Shown here in pieces: positions 33,378-64,000 of a stretch of 64,000 nucleotides of DNA. The translations under genes were made by a program, and so were the position numbers. The stretch is from contig JAWQEG010000365.1 of the NCBI GenBank assembly GCA_033782935.1, forward strand, positions 62,001 to 126,000, given 5' to 3'. The notes under the pieces were generated by a model. That model searched no databases and had not been told where the DNA came from. It saw nothing but the letters and a program-made list of their open reading frames with translations. Source of the stretch: Petrolisthes cinctipes. Lineage: Eukaryota > Arthropoda > Malacostraca > Decapoda > Porcellanidae. How positions within the stretch are numbered: the stretch's first letter is position 1; every line of letters begins with the position of its first letter.

Positions 33378-33637
33378 GTGATCGAGCGGTATTCAGCGGA
33401 GGAGGGGCTTAATACCTCACCACGCCACCACCAGGTGGCTCCACTATCAGTACAGCGCCAGATTTGAATTTTATTTACTTCTGATGAACGTCACGGAATT
33501 GACCCTTCCAACCCAGATTATGCCTATACGGGGCCTGGGCTTGAGAAGGGGCGTATTCTATAGCAATCCAGCTGTGCTGGTTTCACAACCAATAAATACA
33601 ATTTAAGCGGCCAGAGGCCGCGACAAATGCACTAATA
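33378..33637 (+). repeat. DIRS right inverted terminal repeat
   Basis: Inverted copy of the left repeat, then ACAATTTAAGCGGCCAGAGG and the unique end ACAAATGCACTAAT. Confidence 0.92.
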
Positions 33638-38130: not shown

Positions 38131-38576
38131 AACGGGAACCGCCTTGACGTGGTGGGGGGGCTTGCGTGTCTCTGAGACCTGGCGAGCTAGACTAGAGGGG
38201 GCTCCGGCCCCTGCTCTGTCTCGATTTCGGGGAGAGAGGGCTTCCCATGCTAGTAAGGTCGCCTGTGAGAGACCAGACTAAATGGTTCCCATGCATTAGG
38301 CTGCCAGTATGAGCCAACAGTGATGCCCTCCAGAGGGACTGCCCTCTAGGGACTGTTCTATGTTGGATGGTTGGGTGTCGGGCCAGGAGATGTTGGGGTA
38401 GGGGGTCTCAGCACCGTCTTGGGCAAACTTTCGAGCCATTGGGGCTGATTTTTAAAACGAGTGGCCCCGTGGGGGAAGAGGTACCCCGCCCACGGCGAAC
38501 AGCGTTCGGTCCCCTCATCTGCCCGGTAGGTAGTAGCTCTTGGCTCCTGGGGCCATAAACATAAAATCAATGATAT

Positions 38577-40561: not shown

Positions 40562-40566
40562 CACTG

Positions 40567-43500
40567 TTCAAGGTCCTTCAGTGGAATTGTCGTTGCTTGC
40601 GTGTTTCTTCTCTCTTGCTTCTCTCCTGCATGTTTTTCTCTCCAAGAGACAATGCTTGGGGACTACATTCCTGCCAGTCCTCCAGCATACTCTGCATTTT
40701 ATTCCAATTCATTTGAAGGGCAGGGTCACCATGGTGGTTCTGCCATCCTAGTTTGCCGAGATATTCCATGCACGAGCCTGGAGCTTGACACTCCGCTCCA
40801 AGCTATTGCAGTTAAGGTCTTTATGGACCGCCCGTACACTGTGTGCAGTCTATACCTTCCTCCCAGTGTTACAGTTGAGAGGGGTGATCTCAACTGTCTT
40901 GTACGGGACCTTCCTTCTCCCTTTATTTTATTGGGTGATTTCAATGGTCGTCATCCTCTGTGGGGTGACAGTTCGGTCAACCCCACGGGTGTTTTATTGG
41001 CTTCTGTTACTGAGGATGAGGGATTCGGGGATTTAAATACGAGAGATGTGACACATTTTAATAGCCCTACTAGAACTTTTACCGCCATTGACATTTCCCT
41101 TTGCTCACTAAGTGCTCTGTTGAGTTTTACTTGGAGAGTGTTGCCTGATTTATATGGCAGTGACCATTTCCCTATACTTTTAGAAGGTAACAGGTACGAA
41201 CCACAGCCTCGTCTTCCTAGGTGGAAATTAGAGAAGGCTGACTGGCAGCTAACTTCTTCGGTCTCTACTGTAGCCGATTTTGGTAGCTCTGATGAGGCTG
41301 TAACATATTTCACTGATATGCTCCACTCTGCGGCTCTCAACTCTATCCCAAAAACTTCTGGCTACTTTCCCAAACGTCCAGTCCCTTGGTGGTCACCAGT
41401 CATCTGCACCACTGCTGTGAGGGAGAAGTGCGCTGCTTTCTCTCGCCTTCGTCGCAATCGCGGCGACCCAACTCTTTTAGAGGATTTCTGACGGGCAAGG
41501 GCTCTGGCTAAACGAGTTGTAAAAGAGGCACGACGTGCACCTTGGAAGGCCTATGTGTCTTCAATTAATACTAAAACTCCACTCACCCAAGTGATCAGGA
41601 GAGTCCGTAAGATGACGGGGAAGCTTTCTCCTAGTTCTCCACCTGTACTTAAGGTCAATGGAATTAAGATCATGGATGGTTTGACAGTGGCCAATACCAT
41701 GGCAAAGGCTTTTGCAAAGGTCTCCAGCCGTGACTCTCGACCTCTGGCTGTCAGGCATGAGTTAAGAGCCAAGGATCGCACTGTTCTGGATTTCTCAGGG
41801 AACGAGAATGAAATTTATAACCATATATTCACCCTGAGAGACCTGCATTCTGCTCTCTCTCTCTCTCTCTCTCTTTGGCGACACTTCTCCTGGGCCAGAC
41901 AACATCCCATATGCAATGTTGCGACACTTGGGTGAGGAGGCGATCTCATTTCTTTTAGCTTTATATAACAGAATCTGGCTGAAGGGTGTCTTCCCTCTGG
42001 GTGGAGGGTTGCTACCATCCTTCCTTTCCTCAAGCCAGGCAAGGACTCTGGTGTTGCCCTCAATTACTGACCAATTGCCTTGACCTCCTGTCTCTGTAAA
42101 CTATTTGAAAAGATGGTGAATGTTAGACTGGTATACATCTTGGAACGGGGTGATTTTCTGTCTCCATCCCAGTCTGGCTTTCGTAAACACCATTCCACTA
42201 CAGATGCTCTGGTCACGTTGGAAACTGCTGCATGGGAGGCCTTTGCACAACATCAACACCTTGTCTGTGTATTCTTTGATTTAGAGAAAGCCTATGACAC
42301 TACATGGCAATATGGCATCCTGCAGCAACTCCATTTATATGGCCTGCAGGGTCGCCTTCCATGCTTTCTTAAGGAGTTTCTCAGTGGTCGCAGGTTTTCT
42401 GTGAGGGTTGGTACAACCCACTCAGCATCTGTTGCACAGGAGGAGGGTGTCCCCCAGGGAAGCGTCCTCAGTGTCACATTGTTTGCAGTAGCAATTAATG
42501 CCATTGCCTCATCCCTTTCGGACGGTATTGCCAACTCGATGTACGTTGACGACCTAGCAGTCTGGTTTGCTGCTTCCCGTATGTCAGTGGCGGAGCGGCG
42601 CATGCAGCTTGCCCTTGACAGGGTGTCACGTTGGACTGGTTCTCATGGGTTTCGATTTTCTCCTTCCAAGACAGTTGCTATGCACTTTTGCCGCATCCGA
42701 GGCGTCCACCCCGATCCAAACTTATTCAAGTATGGTCATCGGATACGTTGTGTCGAGGAGACTCGCTTTTTGGGTCTCATTTTTGACAAACGTTTGACTT
42801 GGGATCCCCACTTAAGTACACACAAGGTCTCTTGCCTCCAGGCTCTTAACCTGTTGAGGGTCCTGGGCCATACGTCCAGGGGGGCTGATCGGGCCACTCT
42901 CCTCCGCCTATACCATGTTCTTATTAGGTCAAAACTCGACTATGGGTGCGAGGTGTACTCTTCTGCCACCGATGCCCATCGCAGAGTTTTAGACCCTGTT
43001 CATCATACTGGAGTACGTCTAGCGACCGGAGCCATCAGGTCATTCCCAATCCTCAGTTTCCTGGTGGACGCTAATGAGCCACCTCTTGATCTCCGTCGCC
43101 TTTCTTTGATGGTTCGTTGTTGGCATCGATTACATCGACTTCCTGACTCCCTTCCCTGCTTGGCGGTGTCATCTAATATCATGTCTCAGTACTACCTTTT
43201 GCATTCTCGTAAACAATGACCCTTTGGCTTCCGGGTCTATAAGGCTATGGAGGAGATGGGCATTGATGACTTCCAGATTTGTCCTGTGAGGGTCCCCAGG
43301 GTGGCTCCATGGCTTCTTCCAGAAGTTTTCCCCTGCACCTGCTTTACAGACAAGAAGGAATCTCTTCCTCCTCCAGTGGCTCGTTCCCTCTTTTTAGAAC
43401 ATGCCTTCACTCACAGGGAGTCCCTCCCTGTGTACACTGATGGGTCAAAGTCTGATGCTGGAGTTGGCTTTGGAGTTGTCTTTCCTGACTTTTGCCGTAG

Positions 43501-44260
43501 CAGCAGGCTCCCTTCTGTCATGTCAATTTTTACTGTTGAGCTCTCGGCCATTTTATATGCCCTCCAAATTATTTTTACTCTCCTTCAGCCTTCGTTTATT
43601 ATTTTTAGCGATTCCTGTAGGGCCTTGGAGGCCTTGTGCCAATTTAACTCTTCCCATCCCCTGGTGTTGGCCATTCTTGAGTGGTTTGTCCTCCTGGGTC
43701 GTTGTGGCCGCAAAGTCACTTTTTGTTGGGTCCCGGCCCATGTGGGTGTTGATGGGAATGAGCGGGCTGACGCCCTGGCTAAGGCTTCGGTCTCCAATTC
43801 TCAGCCTCCTGCCGGGCGTCATCCTGTTCCTGCAGTGGACCTTCGACCCTACATAGATGCTACCGTTCGTTCCTGCTGGCAGGACAGATGGGACGCCATC
43901 GGAGCTAACAAGCTCTGCGACATCCGCCAGCGCTTTCGTTTGTGGAGCTACAGTGGCCTGTCCCGCCGGTGGGAGATGGCTCTTGTCCGTCTCCGCATTG
44001 GCCACACATTATTGACTCATGGCTTTTTAATGAAGGGGGCTCACCCTCCTTACTGTGATGATTGTCTGGTCCCTTTGGCAGTACGGTATCTTATTGTCGA
44101 GTGTCCCAGCCTTGGGGACCTTCGTCGTAGACACCTCTCCGAGTACCGGGAGGGTGACGGTTCTTACAGTCTCTCCCAGGTGCTCGGGGAGGAGGCTTGT
44201 AGTGTGGGAGGGAACACCCTCTCCTATGTGGAGGAGGCTGGCCTTCTCCACAAAATGTGA
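40567..44260 (+). pseudogene. LINE-A ORF2: endonuclease, reverse transcriptase, RNase H
   Basis: Endonuclease: LQWNCR, SLQET, VCSLYLPPSVTVERGDL, LLGDFNGRHPLWGD and YGSDHFPIL (40567-41180). RT: NYxPIALT (42062), SQSGFRKHHSTTDAL, FFDLEKAYDTTW (motif A), GVPQGSVLS (motif B) and YVDDLAVWF (motif C at 42541-42567), then CRIRG and the LRLYHVLIRSKLDYG thumb. RNase H: VYTDGSKSDAGVG, SDSCRAL, VPAHVGVDGNERADALAK, all catalytic carboxylates present. In-frame stops lie at 41489, 42068 and 43217 and a frameshift in the CT run near 41855-41873. So it would give no full-length product, though the RNase H and RT blocks are individually well kept. Confidence 0.93.
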
Positions 44261-46553: not shown

Positions 46554-46919
46554 CTACACTTTTACGATTCTCTCCTGACTATTTATCATCCCACATGCAA
46601 TTTTGACGACATCATCCAGGAAATCCACCATTGACATTGGAACACAAGAGTGCATGCAGAGAAACTTGAAGAGCCTGACCCGTCGAATAACCCTCTCAAT
46701 GTGTATTCTGAGAGCAGCCACAGCTTTCATATCAAATACATCTTTTGATGCTAACTGCTCATTTTTTTTTTTTTTTTTTTTACACTCACAGTGCGTACTA
46801 ATTTGCAGCCCCTTGCAACCAAATCTGTTTCAATCTCTTTGAATCCTCTGTCTGCAAATACAGTTATCCCTTCCCTCAAGCACTCCAAGTTGCCTGACTG
46901 TCTCAAGAGTTCCATGTCA
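46554..46919 (-). pseudogene. DDE transposase, last exon (ISL2EU-type)
   Basis: Acceptor TTTGCAG/TGACATGG on the minus strand opens an exon reading DMELLRQSGN, EGITVFADRGFKEI (second catalytic Asp in ADRGF) and, after a 22-base A run, VAALRIHIERVIRRVRLFKF (catalytic Glu in RIHIER), SMVDFLDDVVKIACGMI, stop at 46554-46556. This is the DDE_Tnp_4/IS4-5-like fold used by ISL2EU and Harbinger relatives. The A run throws the frame off by one, so the two boxes are no longer joined. The upstream exons with the first Asp (and any THAP domain) are not visible to the right. Its stop faces the YqaJ gene tail to tail, about 415 bases apart. Confidence 0.8.
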
Positions 46920-46989
46920 CTGCAAAGATGGACATGCATTATACAATGAAAAATAATAATTTGGTATGCAAATAATATAAATATTTTCA

Positions 46990-47305
46990 ATAATATATAC
47001 TGTAACTAGTAAGCTCGGTTGGGGAGGTATACCCTTCACAAAAGATTCCTAACCAAAGTTCCAATAATGCTTATAATTTTGGTTGGCGGGCTAACAAACT
47101 GGGTCGCGAAAAACCACTGTGGAATCGGACACGTTACCAAAGGTCCTCGTTTGTTGGCTAGCCAACAAACATTGAGTAGCAAAAACTATTGTATGATCAA
47201 TATTTCTCTTCTCTGACTGTATCTCTTTTCTCTGTGTGCATATATAGACTTATATATATAAGCCAGTACAAACACACATAACAATAATGTTGGTGAGTAT
47301 TTTTC
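46990..47305. other. Region without recognised gene
   Basis: Contains a short palindrome TTTGTTGGCTAGCCAACAAA (47149-47168). No coding exon of the transposase found. Confidence 0.4.
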
Positions 47306-47309
47306 TTTT

Positions 47310-47403
47310 TTTTAATTTATTGCGCCGTGGCGTCAATCAACAGGCAGACAACAATACATAAGGGTAAGCGGGACCCATGAGAATAAAATGACTACACACA
47401 CAC

Positions 47404-47441
<38 letters not shown>

Positions 47442-49300
47442 CACGAAAACATAACAGAATGAAGCGCAAGAATATAGACAAATATTTACATTATGACCTA
47501 CTTAAATCCACCAAAACGAGGGTGACGTACCAGAAGTTCCTCCAAAAGCTAGTAGTTCAGCAGGTGTCGACAAACCACATCAAGTGGCAGGCCCCGGGGC
47601 AGCAAATGTTGGACAGGCAATAGTGTTTTATAGTGTTAGCACGAGGCGCTCGACACAAGCAACACTCAGTGAAGGGAGGCTCACCCTGCATCCCAGCAAC
47701 TTGCCACGGTGGCCGGTAGTAAAGTCTCAAACGAGCAGAGACTACATGTGCCTTTAAACCATGAGGCCTCGACGACGGTAGGAATATTTGTGACGGCAGA
47801 CAGACTCGTGATGGAGATGCTGAAGGGCCTCTCTGCATCCCTGCGTCACCGTACAGGGAATAAAGGGCAGGTTTGGAGTCACAAAAAATGGCAGCATTCA
47901 CTCCACGTTGACAAACAACACTAACAGCATCCAGAATGGCATTCAATTCACACAATTTGGAGCGAAAGTGGTTACAGAGACGACGGCCAACCCAGCCCCC
48001 TAGAGGTGACTCCATGTCAGGTGAGAAAACGGCACAACCTGCTGTACCATCCACCTACAATGAGCCATGCGTTGGTAGCATCCACGGAAGGGCCCTGGGG
48101 GGACGTCTGCCACCATTATATCTATATTAAGACTACGGAGCATAGAGGAAACAGACCTTATAAGAGCACGTCCAGCAGGCAGTATGGGAGGGACCGGGTA
48201 GTTTGGTCTAAGAGAAGTCCTGACTATCTGAGAGTAATGGGGTGAAAGATGTGGGAAATGGAGGCACTTGACAGTGAAGCAAGAAACATTAGAATAAATT
48301 ATCTCGACTAATGGGGGAAGACGCAATTCACGCTGCATGTTCACTATCCTGGTTAACATTGGACAGCTGAGAATTATTCTCATTGCTCTATTTTGAAATT
48401 TTTCTAAATTTTCCAGAGTAGCCCTAGGAAGTTGAATCAAAGCAAAGGAAGAGGTAATCAACAACTGAACGGATAAAAACAATATAGATGGTCCTGGCTA
48501 CTGGGAAGGAGATGCCCGAGGAGTTGTTAGTGAGCCATTGAAAGGTGTAAGTCGACGCTGGAGACGACCCAACAAGTCCTGGACAATGGCATGGTCTTGA
48601 GGTCTGGCAGGGACAACCAGCCAAATATTGACTGGCGCACCCAGGTAGCGGTTCTGGGAACATATGGGAATGACAGTCCCTCCAATGGTGAACACTGGCC
48701 GAGTTTGAGGAAGGCGGCAGGTGAATATTCTGCTCTTATCTGGGGAGACAATAATGCCACAGTGAGAGGAGGCCACAGAAAAGGAGTCAATAAACCGCTG
48801 GAGATCCCTTGGTGAGGTAGAATGAACGCAGATATCATCAGCATAGCACGTAATTGTAGTTCCAGGAATATCAGGGAGAGAAGTGAGCAGCCGATGCATC
48901 AGAATATTAAATAACAATAGGCTGAGAACACTCTCTTGAGGCGTACCAAGATGAAAACTGCGCAAACGACTGAGCGCACCACTGAAAAACACACGGGAGA
49001 TCCTGTTACTCAGGTAGCCTCGAATCCACCGTAGTAGATTGATTACCCTTTATCCCAAAGTCAACCAGTTGATTCGAAATGACGTCTGTATTAGCAAAAT
49101 CGAAGGCACTTCGAAGGTCAATGAAGGCCACCACACTGTCCCTGGAAAGGCGAGAGTCCAGGTCGACTAGGCAGTGGTGTGTGGTCTGCTGGGGAAGGAA
49201 ACCAAACAGCCATGGAGAATGGCGATCCTGCAGTAGGTACATGAGACGATTGAGTAACATTCTCTCCATAACCTTACAAAAACAGGAAGTAAGGGAAATA
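47310..49300 (-). mobile_element. LINE-B copy 2, 5'-truncated
   Basis: Minus-strand copy without the two insertions of copy 1; it therefore serves as the reference empty site. 3' end ATTTATTGCGCC at 47322, a (CA)n run at 47393-47440 within the 3' UTR (also in copy 1 at 24002), RNase H, thumb and RT. The 5' end breaks off at about 49300 within the start of RT. Confidence 0.9.
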
Positions 49301-49311
49301 TTTATTGTCAA
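47557..49311 (-). pseudogene. LINE-B ORF2: reverse transcriptase and RNase H
   Basis: RT from 49311: NISLTSCFCKVMERMLLNRL, FIDLRSAFDFANTDV (motif A), GTPQESVLSLLLF (motif B; the usual Gly is Glu), CYADDICVHS (motif C near 48840), DKSRIFTC, then LLGRLQRRLTPFNG. Thumb and connector at 48482-48120 (RAMRIILSCPMLTRI). RNase H at 48054-47850: DGTAGCAVFSPD, ELNAILDA and IFCDSKPALYSL, but the first box YTDGS is deleted here (present at 23508). Then SLSNICCPGACHL and a C-terminal region with HYC. Frame changes near 49020, 48490 and 48070. Confidence 0.85.
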
Positions 49312-49770
49312 TGTGTGTGTATGTGTGTGTTATCTGAGGACCTACATGCAGGGACTCACCAGGCAGGGTGTAATGGTCACTAGGGATGCCTGTGAGTCTT
49401 ATGGGAATACTGCAATGCTGAGAAATCTTATATATACCTGTCTCACACTTCATTCCTCGCACTCACTACCAACACTAATGTCTTTTGTGTGTGTGTGTGT
49501 TATGGTTCCTCACACTCACTACTACCAACACCACTGTCTTCTGTGTGTGTGTGTGTGTGAACTGTAAGGCTGAGAGATCTAATTATACACATCTCACACT
49601 TGATTTCTCACACTCACTACCACCACCACCACCACCACCACTATCCTCTGTGTGTGTGTGTGTGTGTGTACTGTAAGGCTGAGAGATCTTATTATACACC
49701 TCTCACACTTGATTTCTCACACTCACTATTACCACCACCACTATCTTCTGTGTGTGTGTGTGTATTTTCT
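49310..49770. repeat. GT-rich minisatellite, units of about 110 bp
   Basis: A block (GT)n, ACTGTAAGGCTGAGAGATCT, TATACAC, CTCACACTTGATTTCTCACA, CTCACTACCACC recurs three to four times (GCTGAGA at 49416, 49570 and 49678). Confidence 0.85.
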
Positions 49771-49789
49771 TTTGAGGGTGTTGGCACAT

Positions 49790-50340
49790 TAGTTCTTTAC
49801 ACCCATTCTTTACCACACTCTTACGGGACCCTGAGAAGTCGTCAGAAAAATGGAGATAAACGAATCATTCAAATATTGCCACGTAACAACGCCTACATGG
49901 AAGGAGCTTGTTTCGTGGCATGGTCAGGAGGAATCAGAAGCCACCAACTTTCATACACGATCACAAGGTCCTTAATTAAAGAGGAGGGGATAGCACACTG
50001 GATAGGAAATGAACGACGCCTATCAACACTAAATATCTTCTGTTTCTCGTTGTGTTTATTTTATCGATGTGATCTTTTCTGGTGTTGTAACTTGAGTTGG
50101 GTTTATGTAGGATTTTTTGTGGCGAGTTGAAGGTTACTGATTCCTCCATAGTCCCTCTCCCCCCCCAAAAAAAAAATGTATATAGACAACTAACAACAAC
50201 AAAAGGAATACAGAGGAATAAAAAAAAATAACAAGAATAATTACAGGACGAAATTACAGGCCCCCCCCCTACTCTCTCTCTCGTAGCCTATCAAGCCTTA
50301 TCGAGTTAATATGCAAATACCTGGCTCAGTGGATACCATT
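49790..50340. other. Region without recognised gene
   Basis: The plus frame to 50130 has no family motif and overlaps repeats. C- and A-homopolymers around 50158-50175 and 50261-50270. Confidence 0.45.
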
Positions 50341-50344
50341 AGGT

Positions 50345-50527
50345 GTGTGTATGTGTGTGTGTGTGTGTGTGTGTTCTGTCCCTCATGGTGTTATGTTTCT
50401 CTCACCTTCCCTTTCTTTCCCTCTCCTCTCCCTATTCCCTTCATACCTCTCCCTCTCCCTCCTCTTCTTTCCTCTCTTCCCTTTTATGGCCCTCCCTCTT
50501 ACACACACACACACACACACACCCTCC

Positions 50528-50566
<39 letters not shown>

Positions 50567-50587
50567 ATAAACACACACACCTCCCTC

Positions 50588-50618
<31 letters not shown>

Positions 50619-50625
50619 TCTCATC
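50345..50625. repeat. Cluster of GT, CT and CA microsatellites
   Basis: (GT)n at 50345-50375, (CA)n at 50502-50521, (CT)n at 50532-50562 and (CA)n at 50603-50618. Confidence 0.93.
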
Positions 50626-50639
50626 AACCGTACACTCTA

Positions 50640-51110
50640 TCCTCTCCTCCAAAGACATAATTACTAACATGCACAGAAACTCTAAAACATTGACAGTACG
50701 GGGGCGGGAACCAGGGAAATAAAATGCAAAACTGGCAACTGTCCAACTCAATCTGTCGTGAAAAAAGAGAGAAGAAATAAAGATAAGCTTCAATTGTTGC
50801 GATTCGAAGCTTCACACGTTTCGAAATGTGAGTTGGTTGGTTCGAACCGATAATATGGAGCTCTGAACTTTGGAATGGAGTGAGTTTGTGGTCAGTGTTA
50901 TGTTGAAGGTCATAGGGTGAATATCTATCTCTTATTTTCTCTCATTTTTATCTCTATCAATTTCTGCTGTTTTCTTTCTCTTTCTCTCTTTTTCTTTCTG
51001 TTGTTCTCTCTTTTTCTTTCTCTTGTGTGCCTGAGTGAGGTGTACAAATGTTCCGGTGTTGTTGGCTTGGCTGACGTGCTGTGTACCCAATGTGTGTGTG
51101 TGTGTCCTGC
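50640..51110. other. Region without recognised gene
   Basis: Low complexity, pyrimidine-rich after 50930. Nothing coding recognised. Confidence 0.4.
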
Positions 51111-51715
51111 TGCTCCTTCCCTCCTTCCCTTGTCTCTCCCTCCCTCCATCCAGCCCTACTTCCCTCCTCTCCTTCCATTCCTACTTCCCTCCTCTCCTTC
51201 CATTCCTACTTCCCTCCTCTCCTTCCATTCCTACTTCCCTCCTCTCCTTCCATTCCTACTTCCCTCCTCTCCTTCCATTCCTACTTCTCTCCTCTCCTTC
51301 CCTCCATCCATTCCTACTTCCCTCCTCTCCTTCCCTTTATAAATCCCTACTTCCCTCCCTACTTCCTTCCATCCATCCATACTTCCCTCCTCTCCCTCCC
51401 TCCCTCCATCCATCCCTACTTCCCTCCTCTCCCTCCATCCATCCCTACTTCCCTCCATCCATACCTATTTCCCTTATCTCACTCCTCTCTCCCTTCCTCC
51501 TTTTATCCCTATTTCCCTCCTCCCTTCATCCAGCCCTTTCTTCTCGACTCACTCCAGTCCTTTCTTCCCCCTTCTCCTGTCCTCCCTTCCCCCCTCTCCT
51601 GTCCTCCTTTCCCCCCTCTCTTGTCCTTCCTTCCCCCCTCTCCTGTCCTCCTTTCCCCCCTCTCTTGTCCTCTCCTCCCTCCTTGCTCTCCTCCCACCCT
51701 CACTCTTTCTTACTC
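51110..51715. repeat. Polypyrimidine tract with 25-bp tandem repeat
   Basis: CCTCTCCTTCCATTCCTACT recurs every 25 bases from about 51166 to 51316 (for example at 51191 and 51216); the rest is irregular CCTT-type sequence. The long Ser/Pro/Leu frames here are artefacts of composition. Confidence 0.92.
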
Positions 51716-53061
51716 GCATCTGACTGGAAGGAAGCAAATGTGACTCCCATATTTAAAAAGGGAGATCGCCATCTTCCTGGAAACTACCGACCAATCAGCC
51801 TTACATCTGTAGTAGGAAAGGTATTGGAGGGTATAGTTGCAGATAGAATAGGAGATCATCTTGAATCATATAATTTATTGTATGATTCACAGCATGGTTT
51901 TAGGCGTCGGCGTTCATGTTTGACCAACTTGATTGAATTTTTCCTCGGTATGCTTTCTGAGTATGACCAGTGCCGGGCAATAGACATCCTTTATCTGGAC
52001 TTTCAGAAAGCATTTGATAAAGTACCTCATCAGAGGTTGATGGCAAAAACCCGTGCACTGGGAATAAGGGGCATGCTTGCTAAATGGATTGAGAATTGGC
52101 TGACTGACTGGCGCCAAAGAGTAGTAATCAATGGGGAAGCCTCAAGTTGGGCATCAGTCACAAGTGGCGTTCCTCAAGGTTCAGTTCTAGGTCCACTACT
52201 CTTTATAATCTACATTAATGATATAGATGTGGGCATTGTCAGTCGAATTGCAAAATTTGCTGATGACACCAAGTTAGGGTGTAATGCTTCATCATTTGAA
52301 AAGGTAGAACAACTACATAAAGACCTAGAGAAAGTAGGAGAGTGGTCTGAACGATGGCAGATGCCATTCAATTTGGACAAGTGTAAAGTGATGCACATAG
52401 GTCCAGCCAATCAGAGAGCCAGTTACTCTTGTTGGGAAGTGAAATTAGTAGTACTGACTTGGAGAAAGACTTAGGTGTACTGATCAGCAGTAACCTCAAA
52501 TTCTCCAAGCAGTGCCTCGAAGTAGAGAAGAAAGCCCAGAGGCTTCTTGGTTACATAAAGGGGCAATTTAGATTTAGAAACAAAGAGAGAGTCCTCACTC
52601 AGTACAATTCTTTGGTTCGGCCACATCTGGAATATGCTGTGCAGTTCTGGTCGCCGACTCTCAGGAAAGACATTGCGAGGCTTGAGAGAGTCCAGGCTAG
52701 GGCCACCAAACTGATCCCATCAATAAAGCACATGGGCTATCAGAGAAGGCTGCAGGCACTAGATCTCTTCTCATTAGAGACGAGACGCTTGAGAGGTCAA
52801 CTAATTGAAGTTTTCAAAATCCTTCGTGGATATGAAAACATTGATTATCAGTGCCTGTTTAGCTTAAACACTAATGCAACTAGAACCATGGATTGAAACT
52901 AGACTTGAAACGCTTCCGCCATAATACGTTAGGTAATTTCTTCACATATAAAATCTGCAATGTCTGGAATCAGCTACCAGCAGAGGTAGTTGATAGTTCC
53001 TCGATAGAGCAGTTCAAGAAACAGTTAGACAAAGTTCTACCAAGCCTGTTAGAGTTAAAGT
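51716..53061 (+). pseudogene. LINE-D ORF2: reverse transcriptase
   Basis: SDWKEANVTPIFKKGDR, NYRPISLTSVVGKVLE, SQHGFRRRRSCLTNLIEF, LYLDFQKAFDKVPH (motif A), SGVPQGSVLGPLLFIIYIND (motif B), IAKFADDTKLG (motif C, FADD), then LDKCKVMHIG, a frameshift near 52432, EKDLGVLISSNLKFSKQC, and YNSLVRPHLEYAVQFWSPTL of the thumb. A second frame change near 52885 leads to NFFTYKICNVWNQLPAEVV and the stop at 53059-53061. All RT boxes are intact; only two frame errors. Wording fits the CR1 group. Confidence 0.9.
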
Positions 53062-53300
53062 GATTGTTTCCTCCTTTCCTGTACAAAAATTTCCTAGTCC
53101 GGCCTTTTTTCCTCCGGGTTAGGTACATTTCCATTTCCATACCCGCAATGCGGGTGGGAGAGGTGGGTGGGGAGAGCCTTCTCTTTACTATACTTTTCTC
53201 TCACTATTAGTTAGCAACTACTACTACACCTACGGTACCTCCTTGGTATGGGTCGTAAGACCTTTTGAGGTGCTACTTGTCCTTGTAACTCCTTGTAACT
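51716..53300 (+). mobile_element. CR1-like LINE (LINE-D), 5'-truncated
   Basis: Begins in the middle of RT and ends at a doubled CCTTGTAACT (53281-53300), a short direct repeat at the 3' end as in CR1-group LINEs. It sits between two pyrimidine-rich tracts (51110-51715 and 53301-53560), so it probably inserted into one such tract. Confidence 0.85.
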
Positions 53301-53560
53301 CCCTCCTCCAGCCATTTCTCTCCTCCTCTCCATTCAGCCCTTACCTCCTCCCTCCTTCCCTCATCCCTTCCCCTCTCCCTTCTTTCAACTCCTCCCTCCT
53401 CCAGCCCTTTCTCTCCTCCTTCCATTCAGCCCTTACTTCCTCCCTCCTTCCCTCACCTCCTCCCTCCTCTCATTCCTTCCCCTCTCCCTTCTTCCCACTC
53501 CTCCCTCCTCCTGCCATTTTTCGCTTCTCTCCTCTGCCACCTCTCCTTCCCTCACCACTG
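53301..53560. repeat. Polypyrimidine tract
   Basis: CCTCCCTCC-type sequence continuing the tract found left of LINE-D. The unit CAGCCCTTACCTCCTCCCTC at 53335 recurs in similar form at 53427. Confidence 0.85.
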
Positions 53561-53865
53561 TACTGTAACAGAAAGACAAGGCAAACCAAGAGAACAAAGA
53601 TGGAGGGATGGATACTTACTTACCTTACCAAGAAACGGTACATCGTCTGTCAATAGTGAGTAGATAGATGTCCACACTGTTCACTTTTATATTATTTGCC
53701 TAATTTGGTCAAGACCAAGGAGGTTAAATAGGATGGAGGCGCCCTGGCTTACACCTGAGTGAGGTCAGTGTGGCTGGGTGGCGGCCATCTTGGTATGGGA
53801 GCTGAGTCAGGTGTTTGGCTTTAACACCACTGCAGTTTTGTGCTTAGTTCACTGCTAGCAGCCAC

Positions 53866-55394
53866 ATGGCACGTGTCTCTACTGCCCAAACTGAAGAATG
53901 CCTACATCTTGTGCAGCATATGGTTGTACAGAGAAGCACAGCAAGCTGCATAACCCTACTGTTACATCGCTATGTTAGGAATATGTTCGACACATGTTTG
54001 CCACATCAAAGAACAATACAAAAGTGGTATGAGAGTGTTGAGGGGAAACCAGGCTTTACTGAACCAGAATTTTCAGCACTGAAATTAAAATCAGCTGCTT
54101 ATGCTGAGATGGGAAAGCTATTATTATGTGCTCTAATCATGGATGAAATGGCAATTAAACAACAGCTTCAGTGGGATGGAAAGAAAGACCATGGTTACAT
54201 AGATATGGGCACCAAACTGGATGGTGATGGTCTTCCCCTTGCAAAAGAGGCACTTGCATTCATGGTAGTATCGGTTAATGGCACATGGAAATTACCGGTC
54301 GGCTATTTCTTTATTGCAGGCCTTGGTGCTATAGAAAGAGGTAATTTGGTAAAACAGTGCTTGACTAAACTTCATTCAGTGGTTGTGAGAGTTATATCAT
54401 TAACTTGTGATGGTGCCTCATCAAATGTGTCTATGATTAAAACTCTTGGTTGCAGTATTGATCACAGCATAATAATACAGTCGTCATTTCTACATCCTGT
54501 TACAGAGCAACCGATTGGTGTTTTTTTGGATCCATGTCATATGTTAAAACTTGTAAGAAATACTTTTGGGGATAGAAAGATTCTTGTTGATGGTCAGAAT
54601 AGAGTTATCAGGTGGGATTATATAGAACAACTGCATAAATTACAAGATAGTGAACGATTACATCTGGCCAACAAACTAAGGAATGCTCATATTGCATTGA
54701 TCAAGAAAAAAAAATTAATGTAAAATTAGTTGCACAACTACTCAGTGAATCCGTTGCGACATCCTTGCAATTCTGCCTTAATGAAAACATCAGTGAATTT
54801 AAGGGATGTGAAGCAACTGTTGATTTCTTTTTAATGTTCAATGCACTGTTTGATGTAATGAATTCCAGAAATTTGTGTTCTAGTGGCTATAAACGTCCAC
54901 TGCATTATGAAAATACCAATAAAATCATCACATTTCTGAAAAGAGTTGAAACTTACATTAGAGAGCTTAAACTTTCAAACGGCCTAGAACTGTTAAAATC
55001 AAATTGTAAAACTGGCTCTCTTGGCTTCCTTGTGTGCATTAGAAGTGCAATTATGTTGTATGATAATTTGGTTGCATGCAATAACCCTCCTCTGAAATTC
55101 TTAATGACATTTAAACTGAGTCAGGACCACATTGAGTTGTTTTTTGGTCAAATCAGGAGTATGGGGGGTCATAATAATCCAACATGTTCGCAGTTTACAG
55201 CTGCATATAAAAAAATACTGGTACAGTTGCGTTCAGGAGTAATGCTACACTCTGGGCTCGTGGGAAAAAAAATCTTTGAAAAGCCGCGAGCGAACACCGT
55301 AGACTTGCATGCTCGGGAGGCAGCTGGCTGCTCGCATCTTACAGTAACATCACGTGGGGTTAGTGTAATCAGGTTGTGGACATCGGCGAGGTAA
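53866..55394 (+). pseudogene. P-element/THAP9-like transposase with one frameshift
   Basis: First frame 53866-54721 (285 codons) and second 54722-55394, out of register by one base at an A9 run (54694-54714). N-terminal part CLPHQRTIQKWYESVEGKPG is the standard P-transposase segment after the leucine zipper. The RNase H-like core has LIMDEMAIKQQ, LTCDGASSN and FLDPCHMLKLVRN. The C-terminal part has the diagnostic KLSQDHIELFFGQIRS then GGHNNPTCSQFTAAYKKIL. No THAP zinc finger is encoded at the visible start; an acceptor-like CTGCTAGCAG lies right before the ATG, so THAP may be in an upstream exon that is lost or outside what I can recognise. The frameshift is a single homopolymer indel and could be a sequencing error. 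Confidence 0.87.
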
Positions 55395-55505
55395 AGCAAC
55401 TTACTCAGTATTTGTAAAATGGAAAATCATATAAATTTAGTTCTCCAAGCAACACATGATCATAATACCATTTATTATAAATAATAGTAAAAATTAAAAC
55501 AAGAA

Positions 55506-57102
55506 TAATATTACACAGGTATTACAATAATCGAACGCATCAATACAGAAGCTTCACAGCTGTAATGGGTGACGAGTTTTTGTGTGTTAGTAATGGCCAA
55601 ACAGTCGAAATGTGAAGGGATTCTTAATATTATTGTGCTGCAATTTTAAGTGTTAACAGTACACAATTCTCGTCAATTATATGAGTAGCATATAATATTA
55701 GGGTATGGGAAGTCCATGACGATGGGGGCATGAGTTTGACGTTACTTTGGTGGTGCATGGGATGGGAGGCTGAGTGGGCCATGTGTGAGTGGTATGAGAG
55801 GCTTACTGCACGGATTAATGGTTTGGGTGACTAGATTTGAGCCATGGGTGGCCTTCTACCACTACGGCGGTATCTAGAAAGAGGATATGTTATAGGTGAG
55901 ATGTGGTGTTCATTATAAACATCACGAATTGGGAAGGAAGTTAATCAAAACAATCCTCTGGCAGCCACACTTGAACTTACGTAAATGACAAGGAATGAAG
56001 CATTGTCTCATATTATTCGTTCTATCGTTGGCAGTATATATCATACCAGTTCTGCAGGGTAAGTGAGAAAAACTGTTCTTAAAAAGATGTCAGTAGCTCT
56101 TAATAATAGGCAGTTACTTCTCATCACCCAACCCCCCCCCTGTAGATTACGTTTTATTGCCATGAGTTTCCTAGTCTTCGTTTTGCATTGACAACTTGTT
56201 TGGAGGGATCAAGATAGCTATTGGTTTGCCCTATAATCTTTCATATGCGAAATTGGATATACGGTAATTGCATAAAGCTGTTTGTCTTACATTTACGCGA
56301 TAGATAACATGGATAGAGTCTACAAACGATTCGGTTCAGATCACCAATATACCGTAAAAGAGCTGTTAAACAATGGCACCAAGGAATGCACTTAAGTAAG
56401 ATATTACCTATTTGCCTGGGAGTGACATAAGGTCCAAAAGGGCCTGATGCTATTACTCTTTTTAATGGCATTCGCCTAGGATGACACTGCATTCCAACTT
56501 GCATTTATTAATCAAACAATTCTTCACGAGACAAAAGCCAATATCAGTGTTTCTCTAAAGCTTTATCACCTTATATAAAATATGGTCTGACAGAAGTAAT
56601 GTTTTTCTTATTTATTGATATATTTATTATGCTCCTGTGTATTCCCATTTTTTTTTTTTTTTTTTTTTTTTTTTAAGTCGTGTGTATTTCAAAATTGCTA
56701 TGTCAGCAATACTCCACTGTTCGTGTCCCCTTCACCACGGCGAATAATGTAATAATATGATATAAATAACCTAATATGTATCCTATTCATAGTCAAGATA
56801 TAGTTATGAAGCAGTGGGCTTAGGCAACTGTTGAGGCATATATGATCGAATATCATAACGAGTATGTTAGAGATAGCTTCTTATGTTCACTGTAGGTGAA
56901 CACGTTGCCATGTGTTGCATGGATGATATTATATCAGCCGAATCTTACGTCAGTCATTTTTAACTATACAGGCTGATAATTTAGAAAAGGAGTTTTAATT
57001 GGGTTCGAACTAACCCAAGCTATTTCCTGAACCGATGCATAGTCAGGACTGGTTATGGGGCAAGCATTCACATCCATCACGGCCTCCACACCACACGCAC
57101 CT
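55506..57102. repeat. Left arm of the giant inverted repeat
   Basis: 1597 bases. Contains a T run at 56650-56682 mirrored by an A run in the other arm, a C run (56133) mirrored by G, and an 87-codon frame on the minus strand (56504-56241) whose mirror on the plus strand at 61088-61351 is identical. I do not recognise that peptide. The inner end is TCACGGCCTCCACACC... to CGCACCT at 57102. Confidence 0.9.
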
Positions 57103-57126
57103 CCACTCTGGTATACAGCCTTCACC

Positions 57127-58940
57127 ATGAACAGGCGCAGTGAGAAGGTAGCACAACGAGGCATGATACGTGGAATGTGGAGAGGTGGTTCAAATCCAAC
57201 ACAAATATCAAGAGAGCTGGGGATAGCACGGACAACTGTGTATCGGTGGATAAGGAGGTGGCAAGAAGAAGGAAATTTAGACGATCGACAACGTGTGGGA
57301 GGACCAAGAAAAACTACTCCTGCCCAGGATCAACGCATCATTAATTATGCTGAAGCCAATCCTTTAAAAAACGTCGTCGCTATACAGCAACATCTGCAGC
57401 TGGACGTTTCCGCAGTAACAATTAGACGACGACTGCACTCAAGTGGTATACATCATCGGACTCCAGCTGAAAAGGAAAACCTGACACCAGAGCACAAAGA
57501 AATGAGACGAGCCGTCGCCGAGCGGTATGTGGAGAAAGGGTTGGACTTCTGGGGCCGTGTAATATTTACCGACGAAAAAACCTTCGCGTCCACTTGCCAT
57601 GGTAAACAGCACTGTTGGAGGAGGAACAATACAAGGTAAGCCTGATTACTTAATATAATATTATTACTACTCTGATCCCATCTCACAAAATGAGGGTTGT
57701 GATGATAATGTTTGAACTGTGATAATGGTAGGGGAGTTGTAATGTTAGTGGGATACTGGAGGATTTTGGTATTATGATGGTGAGTCTTGTTACGATGGTG
57801 AGGATAGTGATGCAGAGTAATGATGATGAGGGGCAATTCAGAGGGCAATGAGTTCATTTGTTGGGAAAGAGCTGTAATGGACATTCGCATCTTGCCTTAA
57901 TAATGTAGGATGACAGGTCTTGCGATGGTAAGACAACAATAGTTTCTCATGTCTACAAAATGTCATGTAATGTTAATATATTTCTACATTATGATTTAAA
58001 GTAAAACATGTCATTAGTCATAGTCCCCCCCCCCTTCCCCCCCCGAAGGTAGGTATTGCCGGTTACAATAAGTCAATAGTTTAGGGTCAATGGCGACCCC
58101 TCGGACCAGAGTCAATCCCATTTCTCTCTTCAACTAACACTCCGTTCATTCTTTTATCCCTCGTGCTTGCTGTTCCACCTCTATATTACCTCCCATGGCC
58201 GATAGTGCCTTTCGGCCTAAGGAGGTTTTCCTTTCCTTCTCATCATTTCAGCTGTAGTCCAGCTGAGTCCAATCATGTAGGGTCATACCAATACAGACTG
58301 TGTTCTACAAGTGGGTTTTATTAATTTAAAAAGAGTCTTTTCTATATTTCATTGTAAACCTCCTGATGCTTAATTAATGATATCTGTAGATATATAATAG
58401 CAGAATATATTTGTTTAAACCCACAGGTTTGACGACAGGCACATCTACAAAGTGAAGCGGAGTGGCCACGTTACCGCTAATATGTGGGGATGGGTTCATC
58501 TCTATGGAATGGGGGAGCTCACACAGATAATTGGGAAGTTTAATTCAGACCAGTATCTAGAAATACTGGAAGAGGTAATGCTTCCTACTGTCCGGGCATA
58601 TGCTCTCCCGTATCCAGAGAGAATTATCTACATGCACGACCGATGCCCTGTCCACACAGCTCACGTCATCCGCCGATGGTTTGAGGATCAGAGGGATGTG
58701 GAACTCTTGCCATGGCCAAGTAAGGGTGCAGACATGAATCCCATTGAAAATATATGGGGAAATATAATAAACACATGGGAGCCTGAGAGGGAGAGGACAT
58801 CCCAACAGTTAGTGGAACCTGCAATGCGTGAGTGGGATATATTCAGGAGAAAGCCACATTTAGTGTATAACCATGTCTCTTCAGTTCCCCGACGACTGCA
58901 GTGTGTTTTACAGAGTAATGGAGGGTGGTCCAAATATTGA
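57127..58940 (+). CDS. Tc1/mariner-superfamily transposase, DD35E, with intron
   Basis: Exon 1 57127-57635 (509 bases) and exon 2 58427-58940 (514 bases) join in phase (ACAAG/GTAAGC; CCCACAG/GTTTGAC) into 340 codons with no break, the usual length for this superfamily. Residues 1-110 hold paired-like helix-turn-helix domains (ISRELGIARTTVYRWIRRWQ, then a GRPR-like GGPRKTT, then VSAVTIRRRLHSSGI). The catalytic triad is D149 (VIFTDEKTF), D241 (MHDRCPVHTA) and E277 (DMNPIENIW): 35 residues lie between the second D and E. WPSKGADMNPIE is the usual Tc1 block. The protein would bind the element ends and cut and paste it in the nucleus. Most Tc1/mariner transposases lack introns; this one has a 791-base intron carrying a SINE. 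It looks potentially functional. Confidence 0.9.
57636..58426 (+). other. Intron of the transposase
   Basis: GTAAGC donor, TTTAAACCCACAG acceptor with a T-rich tract. Phase 2. Contains a family S SINE. Frames on either strand within it show no motif. Confidence 0.85.
58021..58250 (+). mobile_element. SINE family S, copy with tail type B, inside the transposase intron
   Basis: GGTATTGCCGGTTACAATAA, GGCGACCCCTCGG, TTCTTTTATCCCTCGTGCTT and then GGCCTAAGGAGGTTTTCC. The head and middle match 18196-18360; the tail matches 3375-3420 and 22625. The start is obscured by C runs (58026-58043). Confidence 0.6.
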
Positions 58941-60489
58941 AATCTGATAAAATATCAATTATTATTATTTTTTACATTTTTGTAGTGTATTTAAAACTAA
59001 TATTTCTATCCTGTTTAGCAATAAACAGCATATCACAAAATTATATATAAGTTGTGTGGCATTCATCTCTACGTTGATATCCGTATGTGTATATACTGAG
59101 TTGCAGTGTAACTTAAAAATTTTGTTCTATTTACTTCTCCCAGTGTTATTTGTGGTTTTTGTATCATTGGCATGATTCCTGTCATTATAAATCTTTAAAA
59201 TGAAAGTCCTCAATTTGTATGTAAATATTATAGGGATCCAAAAGACTGACTTCAGTTATGATATAAACTTGCTGTATCATTTTAAAGTTTGTTGTGATTG
59301 TTTACGACGAAAATATAAAATAATCCAGACTAAAAAAATAAGTGTTTGTTAATCCCTCCGCATCCAAAGCACCAGATATCAGATTCATAGAAGTAATATC
59401 TTTAGAATTAGGATAAAGAACACATAAAAAGCTTAGAGAGAGAAAATCACAAGTCCAGGAACAAGGTGAAGCACATGTGCCCTTCTGGTTGGGATATGAC
59501 TGACAGTTCTGGTGTCCAACACAAACAGCTGGGGAGGCAATTCGATAAGTTCCTGTTCCCTCTGTCCGGGTTTCAGATTGCCAGCACTAACATATTAATA
59601 TTTCGTATGAATATCAGAGGCTCATTAAACACTGATTATGCCCGTTGGGCAAACATTGTTGCCACGTCCACATGGCGAGCTTTGCTTGGCAGTCTGTATT
59701 CGGTGTGACGTGAGAAATGGAAAAACCGCGCTTAATTCTCCATTTCTGTCGCCAAACAGGGCACAGACTACCGTGCAAAGCTCGACATTGCGGACCTGGC
59801 ATAATTACCAGGTCACGATGGGAAGCGTGAGTGAGTGGCCTGATGTTACAAGAGAGTACAATTGCATCCACTTAATATTGAGTATGTTACCTGTATATGT
59901 TTTCGTAGTTATGTGATAAGCATTACATTAATTAAACCAACCTAGTGTGTCCTTTATTACCTTAGATTACTGATAAACCAGATATTTCACAGGTGATTTC
60001 ATATCAGCTGTGATGCAACGTAGCATAACTATTATAATTTTCACGTTTGTACTGTATGTAATTAACCACACACCTGTCCCCTTTATGTTTGCCACTCCAC
60101 TAGTGAGTAAGTGTATCACACTACGTCATCCGTGGATAACTGATTTAGTAGAGAAGAAATGGGATCAAGCGTTTGTAGTGGTGGTGGTGTGGGCGGCAAG
60201 CGAGACAGGTGAGGGGGAGGGGGGATTAGGAAGTTGGGAGGATTAATTAAGGCAGTAACGTCTTACATGTTCACTATTATCTTACGGTTCCTCCTTGCCC
60301 GTTTGACACTGAATTTATCAATATCATCAAATGGGGCTGGTGGAGGAACCATAAAATAATCGTGAAGATATTAGACGAACGACACGAGATCATGATTCGT
60401 GACGTGCTCGACCGTGTGGATAAGCCTTTATAATGCATGATTATGATCAATTTCACTCTACTTTCACACCAGATAATGGTCATAAACCC
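58941..60489. other. Right part of the transposon core
   Basis: No second ORF is recognisable. An imperfect palindrome lies at 59675-59786 (GCGAGCTTTGC, AGTCTGT, GAAATGGA, each mirrored). AT-rich elsewhere. Confidence 0.5.
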
Positions 60490-62087
60490 AGGTGCGTGTG
60501 GTGTGGAGGCCGTGATGGATGTGAATGCTTGCCCCATAACCAGTCCTGACTATGCATCGGTTCAGGAAATAGCTTGGGTTAGTTCGAACCCAATTAAAAC
60601 TCCTTTTCTAAATTATCAGCCTGTATAGTTAAAAATGACTGACGTAAGATTCGGCTGATATAATATCATCCATGCAACACATGGCAACGTGTTCACCTAC
60701 AGTGAACATAAGAAGCTATCTCTAACATACTCGTTATGATATTCGATCATATATGCCTCAACAGTTGCCTAAGCCCACTGCTTCATAACTATATCTTGAC
60801 TATGAATAGGATACATATTAGGTTATTTATATCATATTATTACATTATTCGCCGTGGTGAAGGGGACACGAACAGTGGAGTATTGCTGACATAGCAATTT
60901 TGAAATACACACGACTTAAAAAAAAAAAAAAAAAAAAAAAAAAATGGGAATACACAGGAGCATAATAAATATATCAATAAATAAGAAAAACATTACTTCT
61001 GTCAGACCATATTTTATATAAGGTGATAAAGCTTTAGAGAAACACTGATATTGGCTTTTGTCTCGTGAAGAATTGTTTGATTAATAAATGCAAGTTGGAA
61101 TGCAGTGTCATCCTAGGCGAATGCCATTAAAAAGAGTAATAGCATCAGGCCCTTTTGGACCTTATGTCACTCCCAGGCAAATAGGTAATATCTTACTTAA
61201 GTGCATTCCTTGGTGCCATTGTTTAACAGCTCTTTTACGGTATATTGGTGATCTGAACCGAATCGTTTGTAGACTCTATCCATGTTATCTATCGCGTAAA
61301 TGTAAGACAAACAGCTTTATGCAATTACCGTATATCCAATTTCGCATATGAAAGATTATAGGGCAAACCAATAGCTATCTTGATCCCTCCAAACAAGTTG
61401 TCAATGCAAAACGAAGACTAGGAAACTCATGGCAATAAAGCGTAATCTACAGGGGGGGGGGTTGGGTGATGAGAAGTAACTGCCTATTATTAAGAGCTAC
61501 TGACATCTTTTTAAGAACAGTTTTTCTCACTTACCCTGCAGAACTGGTATGATATATACTGCCAACGATAGAACGAATAATATGAGACAATGCTTCATTC
61601 CTTGTCATTTACGTAAGTTCAAGTGTGGCTGCCAGAGGATTGTTTTGATTAACTTCCTTCCCAATTCGTGATGTTTATAATGAACACCACATCTCACCTA
61701 TAACATATCCTCTTTCTAGATACCGCCGTAGTGGTAGAAGGCCACCCATGGCTCAAATCTAGTCACCCAAACCATTAATCCGTGCAGTAAGCCTCTCATA
61801 CCACTCACACATGGCCCACTCAGCCTCCCATCCCATGCACCACCAAAGTAACGTCAAACTCATGCCCCCATCGTCATGGACTTCCCATACCCTAATATTA
61901 TATGCTACTCATATAATTGACGAGAATTGTGTACTGTTAACACTTAAAATTGCAGCACAATAATATTAAGAATCCCTTCACATTTCGACTGTTTGGCCAT
62001 TACTAACACACAAAAACTCGTCACCCATTACAGCTGTGAAGCTTCTGTATTGATGCGTTCGATTATTGTAATACCTGCGTAATATTA
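60490..62087. repeat. Right arm of the giant inverted repeat
   Basis: Inverted copy of 55506-57102: AGGTGCGTGTGGTGTGGAGG at the inner end and GATTATTGTAATACCTGCGT at the outer end. Differences seen: G for A next to the outer end and C for T at 61440. Confidence 0.9.
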
Positions 62088-62399
62088 GTGCATTTGTCGC
62101 GGCTTCTAGCCGCTTAAATTGTATTTATTGGTTGTGAAACCAGCACAGCTGGATTGCTATAGAATACGCCCCTTCTCAAGCCCAGGCCCCGTATAGGCAT
62201 AATCTGGGTTGGAAGGGTCTATTCCGTGACGATCATCAGAAGTAAATAAAAATTCAAATCTGGCGCTGTACTGATAGTGGAGCCACCTGGTGGTGGCGTG
62301 GTGAGGTATTAGCCCCGCTCTGTGCTCTCAGGCAATCGGTCACTCCAATGAGAAAGGGAGAAGTGAATGCCTGCCGCATCGGGAGGTGGGTGGGTCAGT

Positions 62400-62505
62400 C
62401 AAAGCTGTGCTGGTTTCACAACCAATAAATACAATTTAAGCGGCTAGAAGCCGCGACAAATGCACTATTATTGGTATAGTGAAACCAGCACAGCTGGATT
62501 GCTAT
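62400..62505 (-). repeat. DIRS copy 2 internal complementary region
   Basis: GCTGTGCTGGTTTC, then the right-end bases (GCGACAAATGCACTA) joined to the left-end bases (ATTGGTATAGTG) and GAAACCAGCACAGC: the circle junction in reverse complement, as at 33231-33321. Confidence 0.85.
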
Positions 62506-63079
62506 GCATGCGATGCGGTAGGTGGGAGGTGAGGTGGAGGCAATCACGTGCTAGTTAAGAGCGGTTGAGAGCGGTGAGCAGGAAAGGTAACCGAGGAGGG
62601 TGAGGTTGAAGCTAAAGCAACTCCCAACACTGGCTAGGTGAGTAGCCGTGGTGGGAGTGTAGTAGCTTATCCCCTATTACCCGTAGACCATTCTGTTATA
62701 GACCAGAATTGTTACACATAAAGTCTTTATAGGCAGACTCGAGGGGTCAGGTCTAGGAGAGGAGGGGAGGGGTGACCATGCACCCCCCCCCACCCCACCC
62801 CCCCTTTTATTCAAGTCCTCTGAGCTAGGGCTATGGCCCCGGCTCAGGTAATGCGATCCCGAGGGGATGAAGGAGGACACCAGGATGCAGTCATCCTGTG
62901 TTTAATAAAATATCCTGTCACTCATCATAGTTAAGTAATTGTTTGGAGAATGAATACACAAGAATTCCGTAACAATGTAATTTATTTTGTCCGCACCATA
63001 TGTACACGTATGATAGACATGGGGATGAGCATGAAGCTGTACAAGATGGGGATGAAGTATGGGATGATAGTGACGGGAC

Positions 63080-63997
63080 TTAAGTCGCCCGACCTTTTCT
63101 CTTCGGGCGGCCCCTCCCCCCCATGTGTCTCCCGCGGGGACCCTGGGGAATGGAGGGTGGAGTACCCATAGCCACACAGTGGGTAGGGGAGAGCGAGTGG
63201 AACAGATACCTCGTCCTGAAGGAGGAAGTGGAAGTCCAACCCCCCAAATCCCTAACCCTCTCCACCGAGTGAGTCCTGAGGAAGGCGAGGGAGGCGGCCA
63301 CGCCCCTAACGCTGTGAGCCCTCGGGGCGTGTCCGGGATCCCCGTTCTCTATCACTCGGCAGAGAAGGCGAGCGATTGACCTAGGGAAGAGAGGGTTACC
63401 GGACCTAGAGTTGTAGAAGAGGTGGTTCAGAGAAGCCCCTCTCGTCGCCTCCACGTATGCTAAAAAGGAGTGGACTGGGCAGAGGGGGTGGAAACTTCCA
63501 TCCCTCAGGAACGAGGGTACTGCGAGAGGGGCAATCCTGTCATCAGCCTGCTCGTTCTTAGCTAGAAACGCAGGAGAGGAGGAGATAGTTAAGGAAGTAA
63601 GGTTAGGGCTTACGGAAGAAAAGGCTGTGTGACGGGTCAGGGCTGCCAACTGAGATGCCCTGTACCCTGTAGCTAAGGCGAGCAGGAAGAGAGGTTTCTG
63701 GAGGAGGTGACAAACCTCCAGAGGGACCCCCTCGAAGGTCAGGTAGGAAAGGACGCGGTGAAGGGACCAGGAGGGCGTCTGGGCCCGGTGAGGTGCGGTC
63801 CCCGCCCGAATCCTCATCCTCAGGAGAGAGAGAGGCCTCTCCGAAACCTTAATGTTAATACCCAGGAGGAGGGGATCAGACAGGGCTGCGTGATGCGCAA
63901 GCACCGTCGCCGGGGCCCTGTTGGTGGAATCGGCGAGCCACGTGAGGAATTCCAGGACCGTGTCCTCCGAGATGACCATGGAGGGGTGTCTTCGCAA
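63080..63997 (-). CDS. DIRS tyrosine recombinase (partial at window edge)
   Basis: 305 codons are open and the frame continues past the window edge. An N-terminal SAM-like core-binding part (VLEFLTWLADSTNRAPATVL) precedes the catalytic domain. Active-site residues seen, numbered from the first visible Met: R113 (LATGYRASQLAAL), H228 and R231 (HSVRG), W254 (DLGGW) and Y264 (FRTRYLF), so the R-HxxR-W-Y set is complete. It is the integrase of DIRS-type retrotransposons: it joins the circular DNA into the genome without the DDE chemistry of LTR integrases. It is followed by a basic tail (GRGRPKRKGRAT) and stops at 63080. RT would be expected on the unseen side or in an overlapping frame. Confidence 0.9.
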   Translation of the reverse strand: MRRHPSMVISEDTVLEFLTWLADSTNRAPATVLAHHAALSDPLLLGINIKVSERPLSLLRMRIRAGTAPHRAQTPSWSLHRVLSYLTFEGVPLEVCHLLQKPLFLLALATGYRASQLAALTRHTAFSSVSPNLTSLTISSSPAFLAKNEQADDRIAPLAVPSFLRDGSFHPLCPVHSFLAYVEATRGASLNHLFYNSRSGNPLFPRSIARLLCRVIENGDPGHAPRAHSVRGVAASLAFLRTHSVERVRDLGGWTSTSSFRTRYLFHSLSPTHCVAMGTPPSIPQGPRGRHMGGRGRPKRKGRAT

Positions 63998-64000
63998 GAA

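Follow-up and report, generated by a model that had tools for sequence, protein, structure and literature searches.

Long inverted ends are scattered across DNA transposon families and, to our knowledge, their origin has not been settled. Here we describe a Tc1/mariner-type element of Petrolisthes cinctipes (Decapoda, Porcellanidae) in which a transposase gene split by one intron lies between two nearly identical inverted arms of 1.6 kb, arms that we are somewhat inclined to attribute to an inverted segmental duplication of the element's left end and flank. The stretch analysed, hereafter the window, covers 64,000 nucleotides (C364:62001-126000, C364 being contig JAWQEG010000365.1 of assembly GCA_033782935.1), and the genome searched for related copies comprised 1.48 Gb in 9385 contigs.

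Ends of this order have been described before. According to the parts of the literature drawn on here, terminal inverted repeats (TIRs) of Tc1/mariner elements reach 1900 bp (PMC10379824), Sailor carries 1362-bp TIRs in one fungus and DD41D/VS very long ones (PMC8533490), and TIRs of about 460 bp are given for DD41D/VS and LTIR (PMC5490172). The window element resembles these long-TIR IS630-Tc1-mariner elements in having ends far beyond the usual length; it differs from them in that its relatives carry TIRs of 89 to about 250 bp, and in that the mirror extends outside the element. Bari, some types of which have TIRs of ~250 bp, comes close to the 237 bp of the window family and likewise has related short copies, whereas the portion of the Bari paper considered here describes no kilobase arms (PMC4877112). 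In Galileo, internal DNA is drawn into TIRs that vary from 18 to 1250 bp, much as proposed below for the window element; yet Galileo belongs to another superfamily (P), and its longest-TIR copies lack a transposase frame, whereas an open frame lies between the window arms (PMC3573991).

The transposase has described counterparts as well. DD35E/Traveler elements share with it the 35-residue gap that separates the last two catalytic positions, a length of about 340 aa and a TA target, a likeness of spacing and description, but intact Traveler TIRs measure 13-68 bp as against kilobase arms here; the paper reports Traveler from vertebrates, and its text contains neither the word 'intron' nor 'crustacea' (PMC7093834). 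The molluscan TLEWI, Tc1-like elements that contain spliceosomal introns, also combine a Tc1-type transposase with introns, but are said to have 3-5 of them (Puzakov 2020, cited in PMC10379824), whereas the window copy has one and its relatives show other breaks or none. An initial annotation of the window had presented the intron and the long inverted repeats as unusual for Tc1/mariner elements, and both were already in print (PMC10379824, PMC8533490). Long arms and introns each have precedents; the uncommon feature is that the origin of the arms can be traced.

Inverted arms within a larger mirror

The two arms reported by the initial annotation are confirmed: over their full 1597/1598 nt they differ by 2 substitutions and one 1-nt indel, a similarity far beyond chance, although the inverted repeat is longer than first stated. 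The right arm is interrupted after 62087 by an inserted element, here called X, which runs on to about 69155 in window-extended coordinates (window numbering carried on past 64000 along C364). X is ~7.1 kb long and bears, by our own reading of its open reading frames, a reverse transcriptase; we take it to be DIRS-like. Beyond X the right arm picks up again at 69156-69396, the inverse of 55512-55272, and the mirror then leaves the element, with 69394-77285 matching the inverse of 53365-46894 in a collinear series of pieces. The arms therefore belong to an inverted segmental duplication of ~10 kb. Its right copy lacks 53366-55271, a single piece that takes in the P-type gene and ~50 bp at the outer end of the element, with GAT common at the joint; loss of flank and tip together is what would be expected if both had been copied as one block.

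The initial annotation had placed the ends of the element at 55506 and 62087. Instead, the true left tip, TA followed by CAGTTGCG, lies at 55222, and 62087 marks the insertion point of X. A genome search with a query from 54500 gave matches at 13 other loci that start at 55214-55223, and none further out (C587, C679, C1324, C906, C112, C2652, C1993, C827 near 599 kb, C237 and C103, and both ends each of C1537, C4489 and C1262). Further in start the other arm of C1324 (55286), C8 (55361), the C827 arm (55506 and 55272, with X between) and L021, whose examined stretch ends there. The sequence outside the tip differs among copies; the edge at 55221 is thus found next to other flanks elsewhere, and for this reason the arm as the 3' end of a P-type element is ruled out. 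The tip sequence, TACAGTTGCGTTCAGG, is presumably Tc1-like. With up to 3 mismatches allowed, the tip pattern has 43 matches genome-wide as against 0 for the reversed control; the single match on C364 is the left tip, and within this tolerance the right tip of the window copy is gone. An 8-bp palindrome, TAATATTA, at 55506/62080 was considered as a target duplication and rejected, because the left side continues to the common tip and the right side is where X inserted.

Short-ended relatives and the core-arm joint

Arm DNA occurs at C827, C1324, C587 and C237 (91-99%), and further copies are more diverged. Ten of these 43 tip matches pair up in inverted orientation no more than 7 kb apart, giving five pairs (C112, C2652, C1537, C4489 and C1262), and three of these pairs were examined. 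C1262 measures 1180 bp with TIRs of 247 bp at 94%, C4489 695 bp with TIRs of 89 bp at 92%, and C1537 6900 bp with a TIR that matches over 146 bp at 75% and, beyond a long interspersed nuclear element that splits the right TIR, over another 109 bp at 88%. All three are flanked by TA on either side, though TA belonged to the pattern searched for. C1262 and C1537 connect arm position 57096 to the inverse of 55458, which makes 55459-57096 internal single-copy DNA in these two copies. All three have diverged from the window copy (73-94% in the matching pieces) and lack a window-type transposase; none of the copies found is a close full-length coding one with both tips. Long TIRs are not common to the two-tip copies examined. 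The initial annotation had proposed the arms as a special end-recognition device, an idea that the inverted ends of 89 to ~250 bp in these two-tip relatives argue against; it had also held that short-ended copies without arms would speak against its reading, and such copies are present in the form of these diverged relatives.

The right part of the core, or R-core, passes into the inverted arm at a joint that is seen only at the C364/C827 locus and at C1324. At C237, R-core instead runs on into other DNA at 60489, and no inverted arm copy is listed on that contig. The arm continues into the transposase in the window and in C587, where exon 1 carries two stop codons. C1324 has, on one side, the full 1597-nt arm with the core joint, its tip lost (it begins at 55286), and on the other side the tip with 55222-55972 (11 differences in 697 aligned positions, and a 54-bp deletion). 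The flank at the C1324 tip is a repeat (811 first-look candidates; all 40 scored at 100%) and differs from the window flank, hence C1324 is a different site. The joint at C1324, a copy that is itself incomplete, suggests that the long-armed form existed at two sites. As for C827, its segment 882210-911660 matches window-extended 77400 back to 59630 and then 52197 back to 41738. It was considered as the empty site of a 7.4-kb insertion and rejected as such, since its joint falls within a reverse-transcriptase frame, unbroken in the window, and shows a 4-nt overlap, as a deletion would leave; read from its sequence, C827 is a deletion form of the window locus, and perhaps its other haplotype.

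A 71-bp high-copy repeat abuts the transposon tip in both C1324 (1682467-1682537) and C587 (next to 68333), and a 90% copy is also found in C827 near 599400. It is possibly an insertion hotspot. Being high-copy, these 71 bp were discarded as proof that C1324 and C587 share their flank by segmental duplication.

Similarity of the inner arms

The initial annotation had offered host gene conversion as one reason for the likeness of the arms. In an alignment of five arm sequences (both window arms, C827, C1324 and C587), three substitutions are common to both window arms against the other three, which perhaps speaks for conversion; no substitution in this alignment unites the right window arm with C827 alone, and one sets the right window arm apart from all others. 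By a four-column homopolymer gap, the window arms and C587 also stand apart from C827 and C1324. Left and right differ at 2 of 1597 sites in the inner arms as against 32 of 2624 in three mirrored pieces outside them (6/1149, 20/1234 and 6/241; Fisher p 2.5e-5), and the arms of the window and C1324 differ at 20 of 1593 sites, close to the divergence of the mirrored flanks. We interpret the inner arms as probably kept near-identical by arm-to-arm gene conversion, a reading drawn from few sites that needs C827 to be the counterpart of the right arm. Several points pull in the other direction: the case is built on three substitutions; at one further substitution the left window arm alone differs from the other four; C827 may represent a paralogue and not the other haplotype; and the left-right count covers part of the mirror, the remaining pieces of which stand at 94-95% by BLAST, with indels and simple repeats.

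Origin of the long arms

We favour, with slightly better than even confidence, an account in which an element with ordinary TIRs gained its long arms through inverted segmental duplication of its left end and flank. A Tc1/mariner element with ~237-bp TIRs and an intron-split transposase would have inserted at a TA within a P-type transposase gene. Block 46894-57102, comprising the left flank and the left 1.88 kb of the element, would then have been copied as one contiguous mirror piece and attached to the element's own core at 60489, replacing the right end. The outcome would be a palindrome with arms of about 10 kb and a 3.4-kb spacer holding the transposase, in effect an element with two left ends, whose inner arms would subsequently be kept nearly identical by arm-to-arm gene conversion; a later deletion would have taken the right tip, and a DIRS-like element would have split the right arm. 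R-core without an arm in C237, the same joint of R-core and arm in C827 and C1324, and the short-TIR relatives are consistent with this order of events. More tentatively, and as a proposal we would not ourselves bet on, palindromic duplication of end and flank may have made, in one step, a long-armed transposon with two outward-facing copies of one end around an open transposase gene, which moved at least once (C1324) before the parent copy lost its right tip.

Some of the same observations weigh against this account. The joint at C1324, where the outer flanks are absent, could also come from an element whose long arms arose elsewhere and which acquired mirrored flanks at the window site only later, and since C1324 lacks one tip and most of one arm, movement of the long-armed unit is deduced rather than seen. 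C237 may once have had a right arm and since lost it, and copies are few, with two loci having the joint and one without it. C1324 thus points either to movement of a long-armed element or to an earlier origin of the long-armed form, two courses that are not fully separable. Along the second of these lines, a long-TIR Tc1/mariner subfamily (~1.88 kb) would already have existed, its long ends formed when internal DNA was copied into the opposite TIR, and would have jumped into the P-type gene; template switching between the long arms would have added the outer mirror afterwards. We regard this as possible but rather unlikely. Parts of both arms and the same inner joint are indeed found elsewhere in the genome, at C1324, beside a high-copy repeat and not the window flank, and Galileo TIRs are known to grow by recruiting internal DNA (PMC3573991); the right copy, however, lost its tip and flank as a single block, and the mirrored flanks are about as diverged as the window and C1324 arms are from each other, which gives no sign of older long arms.

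Two other explanations fare much worse. That two short non-autonomous copies came to lie tail to tail around an unrelated transposase gene is very improbable: short relatives do end near the inner end of the arm (57096 versus 57102), and the arm resembles one of them without its inner TIR, but the two arms share one inner end point, six bases past the joint of the short relatives, neither has an inner TIR, and C587 has the identical arm-transposase junction. False palindromes are a known artefact of assembly or library preparation, and a false inverted duplication could in principle have produced the arms. We give this the least credence of all, as the joint is found on three contigs with arms 0.4-1.3% apart, the two window arms differ, and X is present in one arm only. 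Moreover, the published assembly (PacBio HiFi, hifiasm, 1.49 Gb, 9.4K contigs; PMC10849366) has a read N50 of 12.9 kb, longer than the 6.6 kb of arm, core and arm together. If the inverted duplication of end and flank is correct, the locus offers a route to long ends that can be checked at the base level, namely an inverted duplication of which one breakpoint falls within the element. A second site retains the joint, the genome also holds short-ended relatives, and there are hints of conversion between the arms.

The intron-split transposase

Removing the 791-nt intron yields a transposase of 340 aa with no internal stop, as initially annotated. Pfam domains PF13358 (DDE_3), PF01498 (HTH_Tnp_Tc3_2) and PF13565 (HTH_32) score above their cut-offs, the combination of DDE_3 with a Tc1-type helix-turn-helix (HTH) domain being that of Tc1/mariner transposases, and among solved structures Sleeping Beauty SB100X is nearest in sequence (E 2.3e-26). 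The catalytic residues are D149, D241 and E277, and the spacing of 35 residues between the last two, also given in the initial annotation, holds; it recurs in 38 of the 59 scorable rows, those with both last columns filled, in an alignment of 85 proteins (84 homologues and the window transposase).

The single intron departs from the usual, though not strict, Tc1/mariner trait of one uninterrupted frame. A protein search of the genome (4087 candidates, 119 scored) listed 131 matches, and among these 90 cross residue 170 unbroken, 26 begin at 164-173 and 4 finish at 170-171, the window's own two exons being counted among the matches broken near residue 170. Breaks near this residue are found at L007, L008, L037, L038, L040, L041, L042, L044 and L047, and at L003 and L004 together with another near 50. 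Judged by such breaks, the intron is a trait of the transposase family and not peculiar to the window copy. A further 10 matches begin at 232-240, and 42 of the 90 that are unbroken at 170 stop at 220-251, which suggests a second intron site near residues 220-251 in relatives. The family as a whole, with more than 100 matches, some unbroken and others broken near 50, 170 or 240, possibly reflects intron gain or loss within a DNA transposon family. An inverted repeat flanking transposase relatives was found at 2 of 20 loci, one being an AC/GT simple repeat and the other a 76-bp repeat in L046.

The initial annotation had regarded the element as intact and possibly active. The transposase frame is open, but the copy is not intact, and although its frame is open it is probably immobile, because its right tip is lost and its right arm is split by X; the transposase could conceivably act in trans. 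Overall, the initial interpretation is partly supported. The database model Pcinc_004920 (201 aa), noted at 57127-58940, is a fusion of core DNA and part of exon 2 with a reading frame from the TIR, and looks like a mis-annotation of the window transposase.

Additional features of the window

Table 1. Coordinates of features at the locus, in window numbering
Feature	Position	Strand	Basis or remark
Outer left flank, mirrored at 69394-77285 outside right arm	46894..53365		collinear inverted matches
Segment missing in syntenic C827	52198..59629		4-nt CACT overlap at joint, inside reverse-transcriptase frame
P/THAP9-type transposase frames, broken by Tc1-type element at 55222	53848..55221	+	PF21787, PF21788, PF21789
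Left transposon tip, TA then CAGTTGCGTTCAGGAGTAATGCTACAC; TA is the target dinucleotide	55222..55250	+	start points of matches at other loci; genome-wide tip pattern
Family TIR, about 237 bp with TA	55222..55458	+	present at both ends of C1262; C1262/C1537 joints
Left arm as first reported	55506..57102	+	1597 nt
Transposase exon 1: HTH domains, first catalytic D	57127..57635	+	spliced reading and Pfam
GT-AG intron, 791 nt	57636..58426	+	spliced reading; break at same residue (about 170) in relatives
Transposase exon 2: DDE_3, D241, E277, stop codon	58427..58940	+	spliced reading and Pfam
Right part of core (R-core), single copy in window element	59630..60489		also in C827; partly in C1324, C237
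Joint of R-core with inverted arm	60489..60490		in C364, C827, C1324; absent in C237
Right arm, inverse of 55506-57102	60490..62087	-	1598 nt
Start of inserted element X, on to about 69155 (window-extended)	62088..64000		arm continues beyond; open reading frames

Besides the copy of X in the right arm, a second lies at 26418-33639, and another sits inside the arm of C587. The reverse-transcriptase frame (PF00078) that holds the C827 deletion breakpoint spans 51743-52893 and is continued in a second frame. Other long inverted copies in the window are found at 6044-11682 and 38134-44258, about 82-94% alike.

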